Source of the DNA: Frankia casuarinae
GTDB taxonomy: Bacteria > Actinomycetota > Actinomycetes > Frankiales > Frankiaceae
NCBI RefSeq assembly: GCF_000013345.1
Contig: NC_007777.1
Span: 2,666,001 to 2,730,000, forward strand
DNA length: 64,000 nucleotides
Reading direction: 5' to 3'
In this document: positions 11,150 through 31,165 of the stretch, in pieces
Layout: each line of letters opens with the position of its first letter
Position numbering within the stretch: the stretch's first letter is position 1
Notes under the pieces: generated by a model
Seen by the model: only the letters and a program-made list of their open reading frames with translations
Told to the model about the DNA's origin: nothing
Database searches by the model: none
Program-made: the position numbers and the translations under genes

Positions 11150-12816
11150 GCCGCGCCGGGCTGGATCCGGCCGGGTGGGCCGGCGGGCTTCGGGGCGCGG
11201 ACGCGGGGTGCGGCGCCGGCGGTGTCCCGGCCGTCCTCCCGGCGGGCCGCGCGGGCGGCGGCGAGCAGGCGGGTGGCGGCGCCGGGCCGTCCAGCCCAGT
11301 GCAGATGCAGGTAGGAGGCGTGCACCCGGCGGTACACGAACCCCTCGGACATCCACGGCGACGCCGCCTGCTGCCCGCCGCGCCGGCCACCACCCGCCAC
11401 GCGTCCCGGTGCGGGTCGGGGCGCGGTTTCGGGTACCGGCAGCCACCACGCCGCCACCCACGACGACCCGGGGGGCGGGCCTGCGGCGCCGTGGGCGGGG
11501 GACGGCGACCGTGGGTCGCACGGCGCCCGGCCGGGTGGGGGCCGTAGGACCGTACGGTGGAACTCGTGGGCGTGCACGGTGGTCCCGGCCGCCGCCAGGG
11601 GGCTGTCCGCGGCGGCGATCGCGCTGCGGTAGCCGAGGGTGAGCCGCGGGCCCATCACCGCCTCCACGTCGAGAACCCCGCACATCGGCGCGCCGTCCAG
11701 GGTGCGGGCCAGGTAGAGCAGTCCGGCGCACTCGGCGGCGACCGGCCCGCCGCGGGCGGCGAACGCGGCGACCTCGGCGCGTAACCGGGCGTTGTCGGCG
11801 AGCGCGGCGACGTGCTCCTCGGGGAAACCACCGCCGATGATCAGGGCGTCGGTTCCCGGTGGCAGCGTCTCGTCGCGCAGCGGGTCGACGGGGACGACGT
11901 CGGCGCCCGCGGCGGTGAGCAGCTCGATGTGTTCGGGGTAGCCGAAGGTGAACGCGGCTCCCCCGGCGACCGCGACCCGCGGGGGCCGGTCGGGCATCGC
12001 GGGCATCGCCGGGTCCGCTGTGGTGACCGCTGCCGGTCCGGCCGCGGCGAGCACGGTGGCCGGCTCCCAACGTGCGACGCGCAACGGCGGCGCGGTGCGT
12101 GCCACCCGCAGCAGGGCGTCGAGGTCGCAGGCGGATCCGACCAGCGCGCCGAGCCGGTCGACGGCGGCGACGGCGGCGGGTCTGCGTTCCGCCGCCGGCA
12201 CCAGACCGAGATGCCGCGAGGGGGTGTGGACGGCCTGTTCCCGCGGCAGCGCGCCGAGCACGGGCACGGCGATGTCGTCGAGTGCCTCGGTGAGCAGGTC
12301 GCGGTGATGGGGGGAACCGACCCGGTTGAGGATCACCCCGGCCAGGCGGATCCGCCGGTCGAATCCGCGGAACCCGGCGACGAGCGCGGCGATCGAGCGG
12401 GCGGCGCCGGAGACGTCGACGACGAGCACGACGGGGGCGTCGAGCAGCCGGGCGACGTGCGCGGTGGAGGCATGGTCGGCCTGCTCACCGGGACCGGGAC
12501 GGGCCACCCCGTCGAACAGGCCCATCACCCCTTCGACGACGGCGAGGTCCGCGCCGCGGGCCCCGTGGGCGAACAGCGCGGCGATGCGCGCCGCGCCGCA
12601 GAGCACCGCGTCGAGGTTGCGGCCCGGCCGGCCGCAGGCCAGCGCGTGGTAGCTGGGATCGATGTAGTCCGGGCCGACCTTGTGCGGGGAGACGTGCAGG
12701 CCGCGGGCGGTGAACGCGGCCATCAGCCCGGTGGTCACCGTCGTCTTGCCGGCGCCGCTGGCCGGGGCGGCGAGAACCAGCCGGGGAATGTCGATCTCCG
12801 CCCGGGGCTCGCTCAC
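11146..12816 (-). CDS. cobB: Cobyrinic/hydrogenobyrinic acid a,c-diamide synthase
   Basis: This 556-residue glutamine-dependent amidase transfers NH2 from glutamine to the a and c side chains of the corrin ring, using ATP. The dethiobiotin-synthetase-like N-domain has Walker A ASGAGKTTVT and the family segment KVGPDYIDPSYH. The C-terminal type-1 glutamine amidotransferase domain has IIGGGFPEEH, the nucleophile in AAECAGLLYL, and a late VHASYLHLHW holding the catalytic histidine. A proline-rich insertion of about 60 residues sits just before that histidine and is unusual. It starts with GTG overlapping the cobO stop (GTGA), showing translational coupling. Confidence 0.92.
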   Translation of the reverse strand: MSEPRAEIDIPRLVLAAPASGAGKTTVTTGLMAAFTARGLHVSPHKVGPDYIDPSYHALACGRPGRNLDAVLCGAARIAALFAHGARGADLAVVEGVMGLFDGVARPGPGEQADHASTAHVARLLDAPVVLVVDVSGAARSIAALVAGFRGFDRRIRLAGVILNRVGSPHHRDLLTEALDDIAVPVLGALPREQAVHTPSRHLGLVPAAERRPAAVAAVDRLGALVGSACDLDALLRVARTAPPLRVARWEPATVLAAAGPAAVTTADPAMPAMPDRPPRVAVAGGAAFTFGYPEHIELLTAAGADVVPVDPLRDETLPPGTDALIIGGGFPEEHVAALADNARLRAEVAAFAARGGPVAAECAGLLYLARTLDGAPMCGVLDVEAVMGPRLTLGYRSAIAAADSPLAAAGTTVHAHEFHRTVLRPPPGRAPCDPRSPSPAHGAAGPPPGSSWVAAWWLPVPETAPRPAPGRVAGGGRRGGQQAASPWMSEGFVYRRVHASYLHLHWAGRPGAATRLLAAARAARREDGRDTAGAAPRVRAPKPAGPPGRIQPGAA

Positions 12817-13421
12817 CACTCGATGCCCCGCTGCCCCTTTTGCCCGGTGTCCATGGGGTGGCGGACCTTGGTCATCTCGGTGACGAGGTCGGCGGCGTCG
12901 AGCAGCTCCCGGGGGGCGCGCCGCCCGGTGACGACGACATGCTGGCGGCCGGGGCGGGAACGCAGGACCTCGACGACCTCGTTGACGTCGAGCCATCCCC
13001 AGCGCAACGGGTAGGTCAGTTCGTCGAGCACGTACAGCCGGTAGGTCTGGGCGGTGAGGTCCCGGGTGATCTGCGCCCAGCCCTCCCGGGCGGCGGCACC
13101 CGGGTCGCCGTCCGGGTCGACCCGTTCGCGTACCCAGCTCCAGCCCGCGCCCATCTTGTGCCAGGTGACCGGGCCGCCCTGGCCGGAGTCGGCGAGGACG
13201 TGCAGCGCGCGTTCCTCGCCGATACGCCACTTCGCGGACTTGACGAACTGGAACACTCCGACCGGCCAGCCCTGTGACCAGGCGCGCAACGCCAGACCGA
13301 ACGCGGCCGTCGACTTCCCCTTGCCGTCGCCGGTGTGAACCATCAGCAGCGGCCGGTCGCGGCGCTGGCGGGTGGTCAGCCCGTCGTCGGGGACGGTCTC
13401 GGGCTGTCCCTGCGGCGTCAA
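12813..13421 (-). CDS. cobO: Cob(I)yrinic acid a,c-diamide adenosyltransferase
   Basis: This 202-residue CobO/CobA-type ATP:corrinoid adenosyltransferase has the P-loop GDGKGKSTAAFG near residue 32, followed by the family segments VFQFVKS and DELTYPLRWGWL. It attaches the 5'-deoxyadenosyl group to the reduced cobalt of the a,c-diamide, the step after CobB and cobalt insertion. It overlaps the chelatase stop by four bases (ATGA) and is in turn overlapped by cobB, so the three are translated as one unit. Confidence 0.95.
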   Translation of the reverse strand: MTPQGQPETVPDDGLTTRQRRDRPLLMVHTGDGKGKSTAAFGLALRAWSQGWPVGVFQFVKSAKWRIGEERALHVLADSGQGGPVTWHKMGAGWSWVRERVDPDGDPGAAAREGWAQITRDLTAQTYRLYVLDELTYPLRWGWLDVNEVVEVLRSRPGRQHVVVTGRRAPRELLDAADLVTEMTKVRHPMDTGQKGQRGIEW

Positions 13422-15676
13422 CAGGCCACCTTTCCGGACGTCGCGCGGGGCGTCGCGCGGGGAGTGAGATGGTGCAGGGAGTCCAGCGGGATCGTGACGC
13501 CGCCGAGGGCGCCCGCGAGCCGCTGGGCCAGGCCCAGGCGCAGGAAACCGTTCTCGCAGTCGACGACGACGCTGCTCAACTCACCCCGGCCGCCGCCACG
13601 CCCCCCGGTACCGGCCCGTCCGCCCGTCGCCGGTCCGGCCGCGCCACCGGCGGCGCGCACCAGCGCGCGGGCCACCGGCAGCGGGTCGTCCCCGGCGGTC
13701 GCCCGGCCGTCGGTGACGACCACGAGCAGGGCCCGCCGCGTCGGATCACGGCGCCGTTCGGCGCGCAGGACCTCACCGGCGAGGCCCAGCCCGGCGGCCA
13801 GCGGGGTCCGCCCGCCGGTGGGCAGCGCGCGCAGCCGGGCCGCGCCCACCTCCACGCTCGAGGTCGGCGCGAGCACCACCTCCGCTCCCGACCCCCGGAA
13901 AGTGATCATCCCGATCCGGTCGCGGCGCTGGTAGGCGTCGACGAGCAGGGCCAGCACGGCCGTGGTGACCAGGGTCATCCGCGCGCGGGCGGCCATCGAC
14001 CCGCTGGCATCGACGACGAACAGCACCAGGTTGCCCTCCCGGCCGACGCGCACGGCGCCACGGCGGTCCGCCGGGACCAGCACGAGGCCGGGTCCGCACC
14101 GGCCGCGGGCGGCCTGGAACGGGGCGGCGGCGAGCAGGGTCGCCGGCAGATGCAGGCCGGGTGCGTCCGCGGCGGTGGTGACGAGCGCGCCGCGGCTGCC
14201 GCGGGCCGGGGATCGACGTCCGGTGGCTCCCGAGGAGGTTCCGAGGCCGGCGACGGTGAGCAGCCGCGGCCGGCTCGCCGCCGCCGGTGCGCCGGCGAGC
14301 CGGGTCGAAGACGCCGTCGCGGTCGAAGACGCCGACGGGGACGGTCGTGCCGACCACCGGTCCCCGCCGTCCCCGCTGTCCCCGCCCTTCCCGTCATCCC
14401 CGCCGTTCCCGTCATCCCCGCCGTTCCCCGCGCCGCGGTTCCCATCCCCCGCACCGTCGCAGCCGTGGGAACCGCCGTCACCACGGGGCGCGCCCCCCGA
14501 ACCGCCGCCGTCGGGCGGGTCGTCATCGGGGCGCGCATCGTTCACCGGTACCCCGGATTCCCCGGCACCGGATTCCCCGGCACCGGATCCGCCGGCTTCT
14601 TCGCCGGCTTCTTCGTCGGCTTCACATTCGCCGGCCTCGCGTTCGGCCCCGACGCGCTCGTCGAGAGCGGCCAGGGCCTCGTCGAGGACGGCGTCGAGGG
14701 TCTCGTCGTCCATTCCGGGGGCGTCGAACGGGCCGCGGCGGCGGCGATGCGGTAGCGCGAGACGGGCACCGGTACGGATGTCGGCGGCGAGCACCGTGGC
14801 GCGCCCCGCCCACGCGGCGAGTGCCATCGCGGTCTTGGCCAGCACCACGTCGGCGCGCATGCCGTCGACGTCGCAGCCGGCGCAGATGGCGGTGACGGCC
14901 CGCAGCGCCGCGTCGGTGAGCCGGACCGTGCCGAGCCGGCCGCGGGCGGCGACGACCCGGGCCGCGAGTTCCGCCTCCGCGTCCGCCCAGGTCGCGGCGA
15001 ACCCGGCCGGGTCGGCTTCGAACGCCAGCCGTCGGCGGACGACCTCCGCGCGCACCGCCGGGTCACGGCTGGCCGCGACGTGCACGGTCAGCCCGAACCG
15101 GTCGAGCAGCTGCGGACGCAGCTCGCCCTCCTCCGGGTTCATCGTCCCGACCAGCAGGAACACCGCCGGATGGCGCACCGACACCCCGTCGCGTTCGACG
15201 TGGGCGACCCCGAAGGCGGCGGCGTCGAGAAGCAGGTCAACGAGATGGTCCCCCAGCAGGTTGACCTCGTCGACGTAGAGCAGCCCGCGGTGGGCGGCGG
15301 CGAGCAGACCCGGGCGCAGAACGCTGACCCCGTCGGCCAACGCCCGGTCCAGGTCGAGGGAACCGGTTAGCCGGTCTTCGGAGGCGCCCACGGGTAGTTC
15401 CACCAGCCGGGCCGGACGGGTCAGTGACGGCGACGGCGCGGGATGCGGGCCGTCGGGGCAGTCCGGTAACGGCGCGTCGGGCGCGCAGGAGAACCGGCAG
15501 CCCTCCGTGACCGTCACCGGGGGCAGCAGGGCGGCCAAGCCGCGCACGGCGGTGGACTTGGCGGTGCCCTTCTCCCCACGCACGAGGATTCCGCCCAGCG
15601 TGGGGGAGACCGCGTTGAGCAGCAGGGCCAGGCGCAGGTCGTCCATGCCGACCACCGCCGACAGCGGGAAGCTCAC
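13418..15676 (-). CDS. Putative cobaltochelatase, fused ChlI-ChlD type
   Basis: This 752-residue fusion consists of an AAA+ ChlI-like half and a ChlD-like half with a von Willebrand A domain. Walker A is GEKGTAKSTA, Walker B LLYVDEVNLL, and the MIDAS motif is VVDASGSMAA near residue 540. A long Gly/Asp-rich linker joins the halves. Such proteins drive metal insertion together with a large CobN subunit, which is not in this window. I place the start at GTG 15676 (VSFPLSAVVGMDDL): family similarity begins there, and the codon overlaps the stop of the upstream small ORF as GTGA, like the other joints of this operon. A GTG at 15784 would add 36 residues but has no ribosome site. Confidence 0.88.
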   Translation of the reverse strand: MSFPLSAVVGMDDLRLALLLNAVSPTLGGILVRGEKGTAKSTAVRGLAALLPPVTVTEGCRFSCAPDAPLPDCPDGPHPAPSPSLTRPARLVELPVGASEDRLTGSLDLDRALADGVSVLRPGLLAAAHRGLLYVDEVNLLGDHLVDLLLDAAAFGVAHVERDGVSVRHPAVFLLVGTMNPEEGELRPQLLDRFGLTVHVAASRDPAVRAEVVRRRLAFEADPAGFAATWADAEAELAARVVAARGRLGTVRLTDAALRAVTAICAGCDVDGMRADVVLAKTAMALAAWAGRATVLAADIRTGARLALPHRRRRGPFDAPGMDDETLDAVLDEALAALDERVGAEREAGECEADEEAGEEAGGSGAGESGAGESGVPVNDARPDDDPPDGGGSGGAPRGDGGSHGCDGAGDGNRGAGNGGDDGNGGDDGKGGDSGDGGDRWSARPSPSASSTATASSTRLAGAPAAASRPRLLTVAGLGTSSGATGRRSPARGSRGALVTTAADAPGLHLPATLLAAAPFQAARGRCGPGLVLVPADRRGAVRVGREGNLVLFVVDASGSMAARARMTLVTTAVLALLVDAYQRRDRIGMITFRGSGAEVVLAPTSSVEVGAARLRALPTGGRTPLAAGLGLAGEVLRAERRRDPTRRALLVVVTDGRATAGDDPLPVARALVRAAGGAAGPATGGRAGTGGRGGGRGELSSVVVDCENGFLRLGLAQRLAGALGGVTIPLDSLHHLTPRATPRATSGKVAC

Positions 15677-15840
15677 CACGGTGTCGACGCCGTCGAGGCA
15701 AGCGGGTGTCGCCGGTGCGTCGTGTGCACCGGCTGCGGCTGACAGGATCGACAGGATCGACAGGATCGACACGACGGATACCACGGATGCCGATGCGGCG
15801 CGTGCGGCCGGGATGGCCGATGTGGCAGTGGTACGGGCAT
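15673..15840 (-). CDS. Cys/His-rich 55-residue leader ORF of the cobalamin operon
   Basis: An ATG with a strong GGGAGG ribosome site eight bases upstream opens a 55-codon frame directly after the B12 riboswitch. Its product is rich in histidine (seven) and cysteine (four). PHAPHRHPWYPS comes first, then SCRSCRSCRSC from three tandem copies of the DNA unit GACAGGATC. Its TGA overlaps a GTG at which the conserved part of the chelatase begins (GTGA). I recognise no family. It could be a cobalt-binding small protein or a leader that couples riboswitch control to chelatase translation. The alternative is a shadow frame of a longer chelatase N-terminus. Confidence 0.4.
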   Translation of the reverse strand: MPVPLPHRPSRPHAPHRHPWYPSCRSCRSCRSCQPQPVHTTHRRHPLASTASTPW

Positions 15841-15879
15841 GCCGGGGTCCTCCCAGGGTCCTCGCCCATGGTCATCACG

Positions 15880-16130
15880 GCGACGGCCGGAGTATCCTGG
15901 CTCCCGGATCGACGCGCACCTTCGGCCTTCCAGCCGCCGCTGCGGCCGTGGCCCGTCGCCCCGCCGGGGCGGCTCGGGGTTCCTCTCCGGACCCCTGGTC
16001 GGGCGATCGCCGGGCACGCCCGCCTCCTCGTCGGCGAGCCTGCCCAGGAAGGGTTCGCTTCCCGGTGACAGTGGCGGGACCGCGCCGGACTCGCACCGGC
16101 TTCCTCCCCCTGCTGTCGCGTCTGTCAGCA
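15880..16130 (-). ncRNA. Cobalamin (B12) riboswitch
   Basis: Read on the minus strand, the conserved core GGTGCGAGTCCGGCGCGGTC and then CCCGCCACTGT (complement of 16069-16080) is followed about 170 bases later by the B12 box GAGCCAGGATACTCCGGCC (complement of 15884-15902). These are the hallmark elements of the adenosylcobalamin aptamer in the right order and spacing. The B12 box ends about 30 bases before the ribosome site of the leader ORF, so control of translation initiation is likely. It governs the whole leader-chelatase-cobO-cobB-cobE unit. Confidence 0.9.
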
Positions 16131-16155
16131 TGACATATCCGTCGGCGACCAGTAC

Positions 16156-16186: not shown

Positions 16187-16216
16187 CCTCCCTCCCACCC
16201 AGATGACCATTGGGTG

Positions 16217-16243
16217 CTGACCGCTGACCGCTGACCGCTGACC
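16217..16243. repeat. 7-bp tandem repeat
   Basis: CTGACCG is repeated three times and followed by CTGACC, within the same divergent intergenic region. It is a short slippage-type repeat. Confidence 0.8.
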
Positions 16244-16409
16244 AGACGCCCTGTGCTCGTTGAACCGGCGCTGGTCGTGGGCGAGGATCGCGGGCGAACT
16301 GGTATCCCGGCCAGCCCGAGGCCGGTGGACACGGGGGTGGCGACGTCATCCTCCGCGGTCGCGTCTGTCAGAATGATGTCTCCCGTCGACGTTCAGAAGG
16401 GCACACACC

Positions 16410-17447
16410 TTGCCCGACGATCTCGATCCCGCCGCGGGAATCACCGGGGACGCCCGCGGCCGGCTGCGTGCCGACTGCGGGCGCTGTTTCGCGCTGTGCT
16501 GCGTGGCACCGGCGTTCTCCGCCTCGGTGGACTTCGCGATTGACAAACCCGCCGGCACGGCCTGCCCCAACCTGAACGCGGGCTTCCGCTGTGCCGTCCA
16601 CGAGCAGCTGCGGCCGCGGGGGTTCCGCGGCTGCGCCGTGTATGACTGCTTCGGCGCCGGGCAGCAGGTCTGCCAGGTCACCTACGGCGGGCGGGACTGG
16701 CGAGCGGCCCCGGACAGTGCCCGGCAGATGTTCGATGTCTTCGCGGTCATGCGGACGCTGCACGAGCTGCTGTGGTATCTGAGCGAGGCGCTGAGCCGGC
16801 CCGCCGCCGCCCCGCTGCACGCCGAGCTGCATGACGCCCGCGCTCGCACCATGCTGCTGACCTGCGCCGACGCCGACACGCTGCTCGCCGTGGACGTCCC
16901 CGCGCTGCGTCAGGCGGTCCATCTGCTGTTGCTGCAGGCCAGCGACCTGGTCCGCGCCGAGCTGCCGGGCGGTGCCGGGAACAGGCGTCCCCGGCGGCGC
17001 CCCCGCGGCGCCGACCTGCTCGGCGCGAACCTCGCCGGGGCGGATCTGCGCGGCGCGGCGCTGCAGGGAACCCTCCTGATCGGCGCGGATCTGCGGGGGG
17101 CGGATCTGCGCGGCGCCGACCTGCTCGGCGCTGACCTGCGCGACACCGACCTGCACGGCGCCAACCTGCACGGCGCCCTGTTCGTCGTTCAGGCCCAGCT
17201 CGACGCCGCCCGCGGGGACGCCACCACGGCGCTGCCCCCGGCTCTGACCCGCCCCGTGCACTGGACGCGCACGGCGGACCCGACGCGGCCGGACCCCAGA
17301 ACGCACCCCGTGGCGGGCTCGGGCCCCGGGCCCGGGACGGTGCCGATCCCCTCGTCGTCGCCCAGCGCGGCCCGGCCGCGGCGGTCGGCGAGTTCTCCTC
17401 GGTCGCCTCGTTCCCCTCGGTCGCCTCGTTCCCCACGCCGCCGCTGA
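16410..17447 (+). CDS. Cys-rich cluster plus pentapeptide-repeat protein
   Basis: This 345-residue protein starts at TTG with AGAAGG nine bases upstream. The N-terminal third has closely spaced cysteines (RADCGRCFALCCV, then C-P at about residue 53, FRCAVHE, RGCAVYDCFG). They resemble the zinc/iron-binding cysteine clusters found at the front of some actinobacterial pentapeptide proteins. Residues about 195-265 are A(D/N)LxG pentapeptide repeats forming a right-handed beta-helix (GADLLGANLAGADLRGA). The C-terminus ends in SPR tripeptide repeats that look like slippage. Pentapeptide proteins can mimic DNA or bind gyrase, but no target can be read here. It diverges from the cobalamin operon. 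Confidence 0.75.
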   Translation: MPDDLDPAAGITGDARGRLRADCGRCFALCCVAPAFSASVDFAIDKPAGTACPNLNAGFRCAVHEQLRPRGFRGCAVYDCFGAGQQVCQVTYGGRDWRAAPDSARQMFDVFAVMRTLHELLWYLSEALSRPAAAPLHAELHDARARTMLLTCADADTLLAVDVPALRQAVHLLLLQASDLVRAELPGGAGNRRPRRRPRGADLLGANLAGADLRGAALQGTLLIGADLRGADLRGADLLGADLRDTDLHGANLHGALFVVQAQLDAARGDATTALPPALTRPVHWTRTADPTRPDPRTHPVAGSGPGPGTVPIPSSSPSAARPRRSASSPRSPRSPRSPRSPRRR

Positions 17448-30165: not shown

Positions 30166-31165
30166 ATGTGCAGGTGCTGGCCCGGTTGACCAGCAGGCTG
30201 CACTTTCAGCGCCGGGATCTTCCCGCGGAGCCGGCCGCGGGCCAGCTCCGCCAGATACTCGGGGTTCCGCTCCCCGGCGATCATCTTCTCCAGGATCGCC
30301 CGGCCGGAGACTCCCAGCGGCTGGGAGGCGACGCTGGTGAGTTTCACCCCGGCGTCCTGCATCAGCTTCTCCAGCCGCTGGACCTCGCGGGTCTTCTCCT
30401 CCACGACCGTGCGCCGCGCCCGGGTGAGGTCGCGCAGGTCCCGGAACGGCTTCGGGGGAACGAACGACGGCCGGACCAGGCCGTGCGCGACGAGGTCCGC
30501 AAGCCACGCGGCGTCGGCCACATCCGTTTTCCGGCCTGGTACGTTACGGACATGCGCGGCGTTGAGAAGCCAGCATTCGAACTGGTCTTCCAGCAGGCGG
30601 AAGACAGGTTTCCAGTAAACCCCTGTTGATTCCATTCCCACGACCGTGACCTTGTTCTGGGCCAGCCAGTCCGCGAGGAGACCTAACGAACCCCCGGTCG
30701 TGGTGAACGTGCGGACCTCGACTTTCGGATGCGCCGGGATAAACCGGCCTTAGGATAAGGAGTAGCGATCCACGACGACCCCGAGCCATGTGGCTGCTTC
30801 CGCAAGGGGGCGGCTGAAGCGTTGGTAGGGGCACGTGTAGGCCAGGCTATTGAGCCGCGAAATGAGAAGACCGGGTGCGCCGACGTGGTCGAAAGCACGG
30901 AAGGCAACACCGTCGCGAGCGCTAGACGCGAGTTCGGGACGGGCCCCGCGCGGTCGGAGAACCATGGCATGCACGGAATCCTCAGGCACGAGAACCGGGA
31001 GATCCCGTACCCGCCCGTCGGTGTGATGGCCGGCGGGCCGTCCAGGGAACGCCAAGGCGGTAATCCTGGGATGCACGGGTGCGGGAGGTCAGACACGCCC
31101 ATAGTACCTGTGAACCAGCCGAACAGAGCCGCGAGAGTGGTTGCGGAGGCGGGGGAGGAAAGGGC

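Follow-up and report, generated by a model that had tools for sequence, protein, structure and literature searches.

A cobalamin (B12) riboswitch in Frankia casuarinae is separated from a cobaltochelatase gene by an open reading frame of 55 codons, which raises the question of what this short frame is for: a peptide with a task of its own, the delivery of ribosomes to the chelatase, or nothing at all. The locus lies on the minus strand of the window, that is, of the whole stretch of 64,000 nucleotides that was analysed, in a genome made up of a single contig of 5,433,628 bases. The best explanation, given a probability of roughly 0.8, is that the short frame is a riboswitch-gated relay of ribosomes and that its peptide is a by-product.

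Layout of the locus

The riboswitch covers positions 15885 to 16140 (ends approximate, set by alignment) and consists of a core matching RF00174 at 16103-16007, a variable arm and a 3' B12 box AGCCAGGATACTC. The core scored 32.3 bits in the window, above the Rfam gathering score of 31.5; scores in other genera of the Frankiaceae were 72 to 83 bits, and some chelatase leaders of the same genus fell just under the gathering cut-off. In an alignment of ten Frankia relatives the aptamer ran past the Rfam match, through the variable arm, to the B12 box at 15902-15890, and the Rfam match of one relative (G010) extended as far as the box. The box was invariant across all Frankia relatives aligned. 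It is followed by an expression-platform element, GGGCGAGGA (15859-15867), of which GGGCG was invariant in 24 aligned platforms, and by the Shine-Dalgarno (SD) sequence GGGAGG (15849-15854), whose GGAGG ends 8 nt before ATG 15840. Counted from the B12 box, the SD begins some 36 nt and the ATG some 50 nt downstream. Consensus folding of the platform for sequestration of the SD found no pairs, and single-sequence estimates of SD pairing probability were mixed. B12 binding and the switching of expression are assigned from the riboswitch class and would be those of a cobalamin riboswitch. At the other Frankia B12 riboswitches retrieved, the ORF under direct control is a longer one, and a crude scan of them saw no relay.

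The short frame (15673-15840; MPVPLPHRPSRPHAPHRHPWYPSCRSCRSCRSCQPQPVHTTHRRHPLASTASTPW) runs from ATG 15840 to a TGA at 15675-15673 and holds seven His and four Cys in its 55 codons. The TGA overlaps a GTG within the tetranucleotide GTGA (15676-15673) at the onset of chelatase homology: the match to TIGR02442 sets in two codons downstream of GTG 15676, at residue 39 of the form that starts at 15784. The coordinates, the SD, the residue counts and the joint had been given by the initial annotation, and all were correct on re-reading of the sequence. From GTG 15676 to 13418 the gene codes for a cobaltochelatase of the fused BchI/BchD type. TIGR02442 was its best model by far (710.4 bits); because this score is below the curated hypoth_equivalog cut-off (779.45), the chelatase is treated as TIGR02442-like. 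Joints downstream are also of the NTGA type, with TTGA (13418-13421) between the chelatase and cobO (12813-13421; cob(I)yrinic acid a,c-diamide adenosyltransferase), GTGA (12813-12816) between cobO and cobB, and GTGA between cobB and the next gene, the last two in agreement with the claim that the GTGA joint is reused there. As an upstream partner of the chelatase, cobN was ruled out here, being unlinked to it in this genome (G000:C1:1815021-1818851).

A 34-nt stretch (16107-16140) that forms the 5' end of the riboswitch recurs (79%) at 16350-16383, 243 nt away, where the second copy adjoins the start of the divergent gene; a promoter or part of a leader may have been duplicated. The divergent gene (16410-17447, plus strand) codes for a pentapeptide-repeat protein with a Cys-rich N-terminal part, and the 7-mer GCTGACC stands in four perfect tandem copies (16216-16243) between the divergent genes. 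Elsewhere in the window, a group II intron RNA was matched at 30740-30963 on the plus strand (RF02005, 159.6 bits).

Comparison within the Frankiaceae

A close homologue of the chelatase was present in 9 of 12 other genomes of the same genus, in Frankia torreyi CpI1 and in most of 35 genomes of the family. Twenty loci were examined, 19 of them distinct, the CpI1 stretch being identical to that of G011; at locus L224 (G022) the relevant stretch was masked by N. An SD followed by ATGCC was found at all 20 loci, with 50-55 nt from the B12 box to the ATG and with GGAGG or GGGGGGAG as the SD. At 16 of the 19 distinct loci the stop of the short frame and the start of the chelatase share an exact NTGA overlap, which is GTGA in g1 and g5 and ATGA in genus g6. 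The other three loci (G007, G008, G014) carry an in-frame fusion, in which the chelatase reads from this same ATG, and the third frame occurred at none of the 19. The short frame and its joint, which the initial annotation had proposed to compare across related genomes, were in this sense conserved.

A different leader, with the chelatase started directly, was found in genus g7 and in two g5 genomes. At L138 to L147 (genus g7, G018 and G020) the chelatase lies behind a shorter B12-type leader, GCCACTGTGAGCC...AGCCAGAACACCTC, and is started directly from an SD-GTG; at the gathering score Rfam did not report the leaders of the three loci tested (L138, L141, L144).

Distances from the ATG to the chelatase start at the 16 relay loci were 164, 68, 50, 71, 98, 107, 95, 116, 128, 104, 77, 77, 80, 77, 50 and 50 nt, and all of them equal 2 modulo 3. 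A maximum-likelihood tree of the chelatase N-terminus gave at least 15 length changes and two switches between relay and fusion. Between neighbours, the ATG-to-start distance changed by a multiple of three in 12 of 14 cases, and the two exceptions were the relay/fusion switches; in control spacers of the same leaders, multiples of three made up 2 of 11 changes (variable aptamer arm) and 1 of 9 (box-to-ATG spacer). The P values for 12/14 against the pooled 3/20 (Fisher P = 5.7e-5; binomial P = 8e-5) are guides only, the neighbour pairs being partly dependent and the 9-bp repeats contributing. Part of the length variation consists of repeat units in multiples of three (9 bp in the genome of the window), which could inflate the modulo-3 count. 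As judged from the alignments, the short frame is selected, because length changes between the ATG and the chelatase are nearly always multiples of three and the non-coding spacers are unbiased. The relay locus is very probably real, selected and functional.

Ribosome entry and rival explanations

Neither GTG 15676 nor GTG 15784 is preceded by an SD, and GTG 15784 has no counterpart in the aligned Frankia relatives; the chelatase start is placed at 15676, as the initial annotation had suggested against the usual call. Outside the Frankiaceae, 73 of 79 homologues have an SD match of at least 4 nt ahead of the start near FPF. At the relay loci of the same genus no such match occurred at the chelatase start, and GGAGG stood 8-9 nt before the short-frame ATG in all of them. 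Other genera showed a weak GGTG at some g5 chelatase starts and GGAG at 4 nt at two g6 loci. Starts in g5 carry a GGGGGTGG stretch, a possible weak SD by which some ribosomes may enter at the chelatase directly, and the coupling may be partial there. The in-frame fusions suggest that ribosomes enter this gene at the ATG next to the riboswitch, which is the putative chelatase start wherever the frame allows it.

The aptamer, the conservation of SD-ATG and frame, the NTGA joint, the missing chelatase SD and the natural in-frame fusions underlie a model in which translation of the short frame in vivo, termination-reinitiation and an OFF response to B12 are predicted. The riboswitch would decide whether ribosomes can load at a single strong site, the SD of ATG 15840. 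With B12 bound this SD would be closed, as expected from the riboswitch class. Without B12, the short frame, whose sequence and length are free, would be translated as far as the TGA of GTGA, where ribosomes would terminate and then start again on the GTG that overlaps it. The chelatase, with no SD of its own, would be reached through the short frame, and B12 would shut off the chelatase-cobO-cobB operon by way of it. Ribosome delivery would be the only conserved job of the frame, and the peptide a by-product.

A short frame due to chance, with GTG 15676 or 15784 as an independent start of the chelatase, is very unlikely. The openness of the frame is uninformative because GC is so high that long open frames are common (58% of shuffles of the own locus reach this length), which leaves room for chance; the relation between the frames nevertheless survives repeated length changes, the SD-ATG is conserved, and neither GTG has an SD. 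Hardly credible is a functional Cys/His-rich peptide that binds cobalt or senses a metal, either as a nascent sensor of the CruR kind or as a cobalt chaperone. Such a peptide would sit suitably before a cobalt-inserting enzyme, and 11 or more His plus Cys were reached in about 1.7% of shuffles (P about 0.017). However, peptides of the Frankiaceae relay loci are 17-55 aa long, with low identity and no shared motif beyond the start; His number 0-7, and Cys number four in the window genome, none at every other relay locus of the same genus and 0-2 elsewhere. Three of the four Cys are explained by a 9-bp tandem repeat (15741-15771, 3.4 copies) that accounts for SCRSCRSCRSC and was found only here. 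Differences by codon position (57/81/97) are far from those of the chelatase in the same genomes (94/69/340), and neither a conserved Cys motif such as the CXXC of CruR nor its RAPP motif (PMC9426467) is present in the peptides. There is no sign that the peptide is selected, and its length and identity appear unconstrained. The initial annotation had joined riboswitch, short frame and chelatase through a possibly cobalt-binding peptide; that peptide was dropped for want of conserved Cys and His, and entry at the SD-ATG with coupling at NTGA is, by comparison, the most likely form of the remainder.

The chelatase might also be made mainly as a fusion to the short peptide, with a longer N-terminus, if ribosomes slip by -1 at TGGTGA and so suppress the stop, and this too is unlikely. 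A fused N-terminus is tolerated, because natural in-frame fusions exist, from the same ATG at three Frankiaceae loci and also outside the family (L080, L046); a minor frameshift fusion is known for uPPE2-PPE2 (PMC11260477). Against a slip as the main route, TGGTGA aside there is no conserved slippery site, codons before ATGA are others in g6, and a start codon is retained at the joint of every uORF locus, which reinitiation needs and a slip does not.

Known systems and other lineages

A riboswitch-gated uORF relay has already been demonstrated by experiment at ppe2 of Mycobacterium tuberculosis, and the Frankia chelatase locus, known from sequence, is very probably a further example. Loss of the uORF SD or start severely cuts PPE2 expression (Kipkorir et al. 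2024, PMC11260477), and PPE2 is made mostly by termination-reinitiation at AUGA, the fusion being minor (PMC11260477). By analogy, expression of the chelatase would depend on translation of the uORF and on B12. Common to uPPE2-ppe2 (PMC11260477) and the Frankia locus are a B12 riboswitch, an SD found only at a short out-of-frame ORF that begins right after the aptamer, a downstream gene with no SD (in Frankia, at the loci of the same genus), a 4-nt NUGA stop/start overlap (GTGA in the window, GTGA or ATGA at 16 of 16 distinct relay loci) and a B12-related operon. Unlike ppe2, the downstream gene in Frankia is cobaltochelatase-cobO-cobB, the overlap is GUGA instead of AUGA, the peptide sequence is not conserved and some lineages are fused in frame. 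A literature search of limited scope found nothing that links such a relay to cobaltochelatase or to Frankia.

The Mbox-controlled uORF Rv1805A upstream of pe20 (PMC12810186) is similar in that a small actinobacterial ORF is under the direct control of a riboswitch with a translational platform; it differs in that the Mbox senses Mg2+ and that the Rv1805A sequence is highly conserved, whereas that of the Frankia short ORF is not. The copper-sensing uORF CruR (DUF2946; PMC9426467) likewise heads a metal-related operon but senses Cu via a conserved CXXC and stalls on RAPP, and the Frankia peptide has no conserved motif.

With the Frankia locus, a single mycobacterial observation becomes a comparative case, in which a biosynthetic operon would be gated via a tiny ORF whose sequence is free and whose frame is not. 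Relay, fusion and direct start are natural experiments for termination-reinitiation, and the locus shows that gene finders may misplace starts behind riboswitches.

Beyond the Frankiaceae, 147 homologous loci were surveyed, and a B12 riboswitch was directly upstream in about 27. Nine of these, from other families of the Actinomycetia, are candidate relays, in which a short frame runs up to an NTGA shared with the start of the chelatase (L072 and L085, Blastococcus and Modestobacter; L157, L159, L160, L166, L167, L171 and L178); they were picked out by eye, by looking for NTGA. All nine aptamers pass Rfam gathering. L157, closest to L072, is ambiguous in that an in-frame GTG fits too, and at L171 a GAGG also precedes the chelatase ATG. 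The remaining riboswitch loci outside the Frankiaceae use an SD at this position for the chelatase itself, whose N-terminus is extended in some of them. Direct-start leaders of other Actinomycetia (e.g. L082, L091, L030) have the same platform element, SD distance and gene as the Frankia locus; unlike it, they start the chelatase at the first start codon and have no short ORF. It is tentatively proposed, at odds just short of even, that sequence-free relay ORFs are common and repeatedly evolved in Actinomycetia, that only SD, start, frame and NTGA are kept, and that lineages interconvert relay and fusion.

The relay may have taken over an existing joint that coupled cobN, or another long ORF, to the chelatase. 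In genus g2 a gene that we take to be cobN, from its position and from operon knowledge, precedes the chelatase and overlaps it in NTGA. The ORF directly upstream of the chelatase in many Streptomyces is a long one, presumably cobN by operon knowledge, and is again joined to it by an NTGA overlap.
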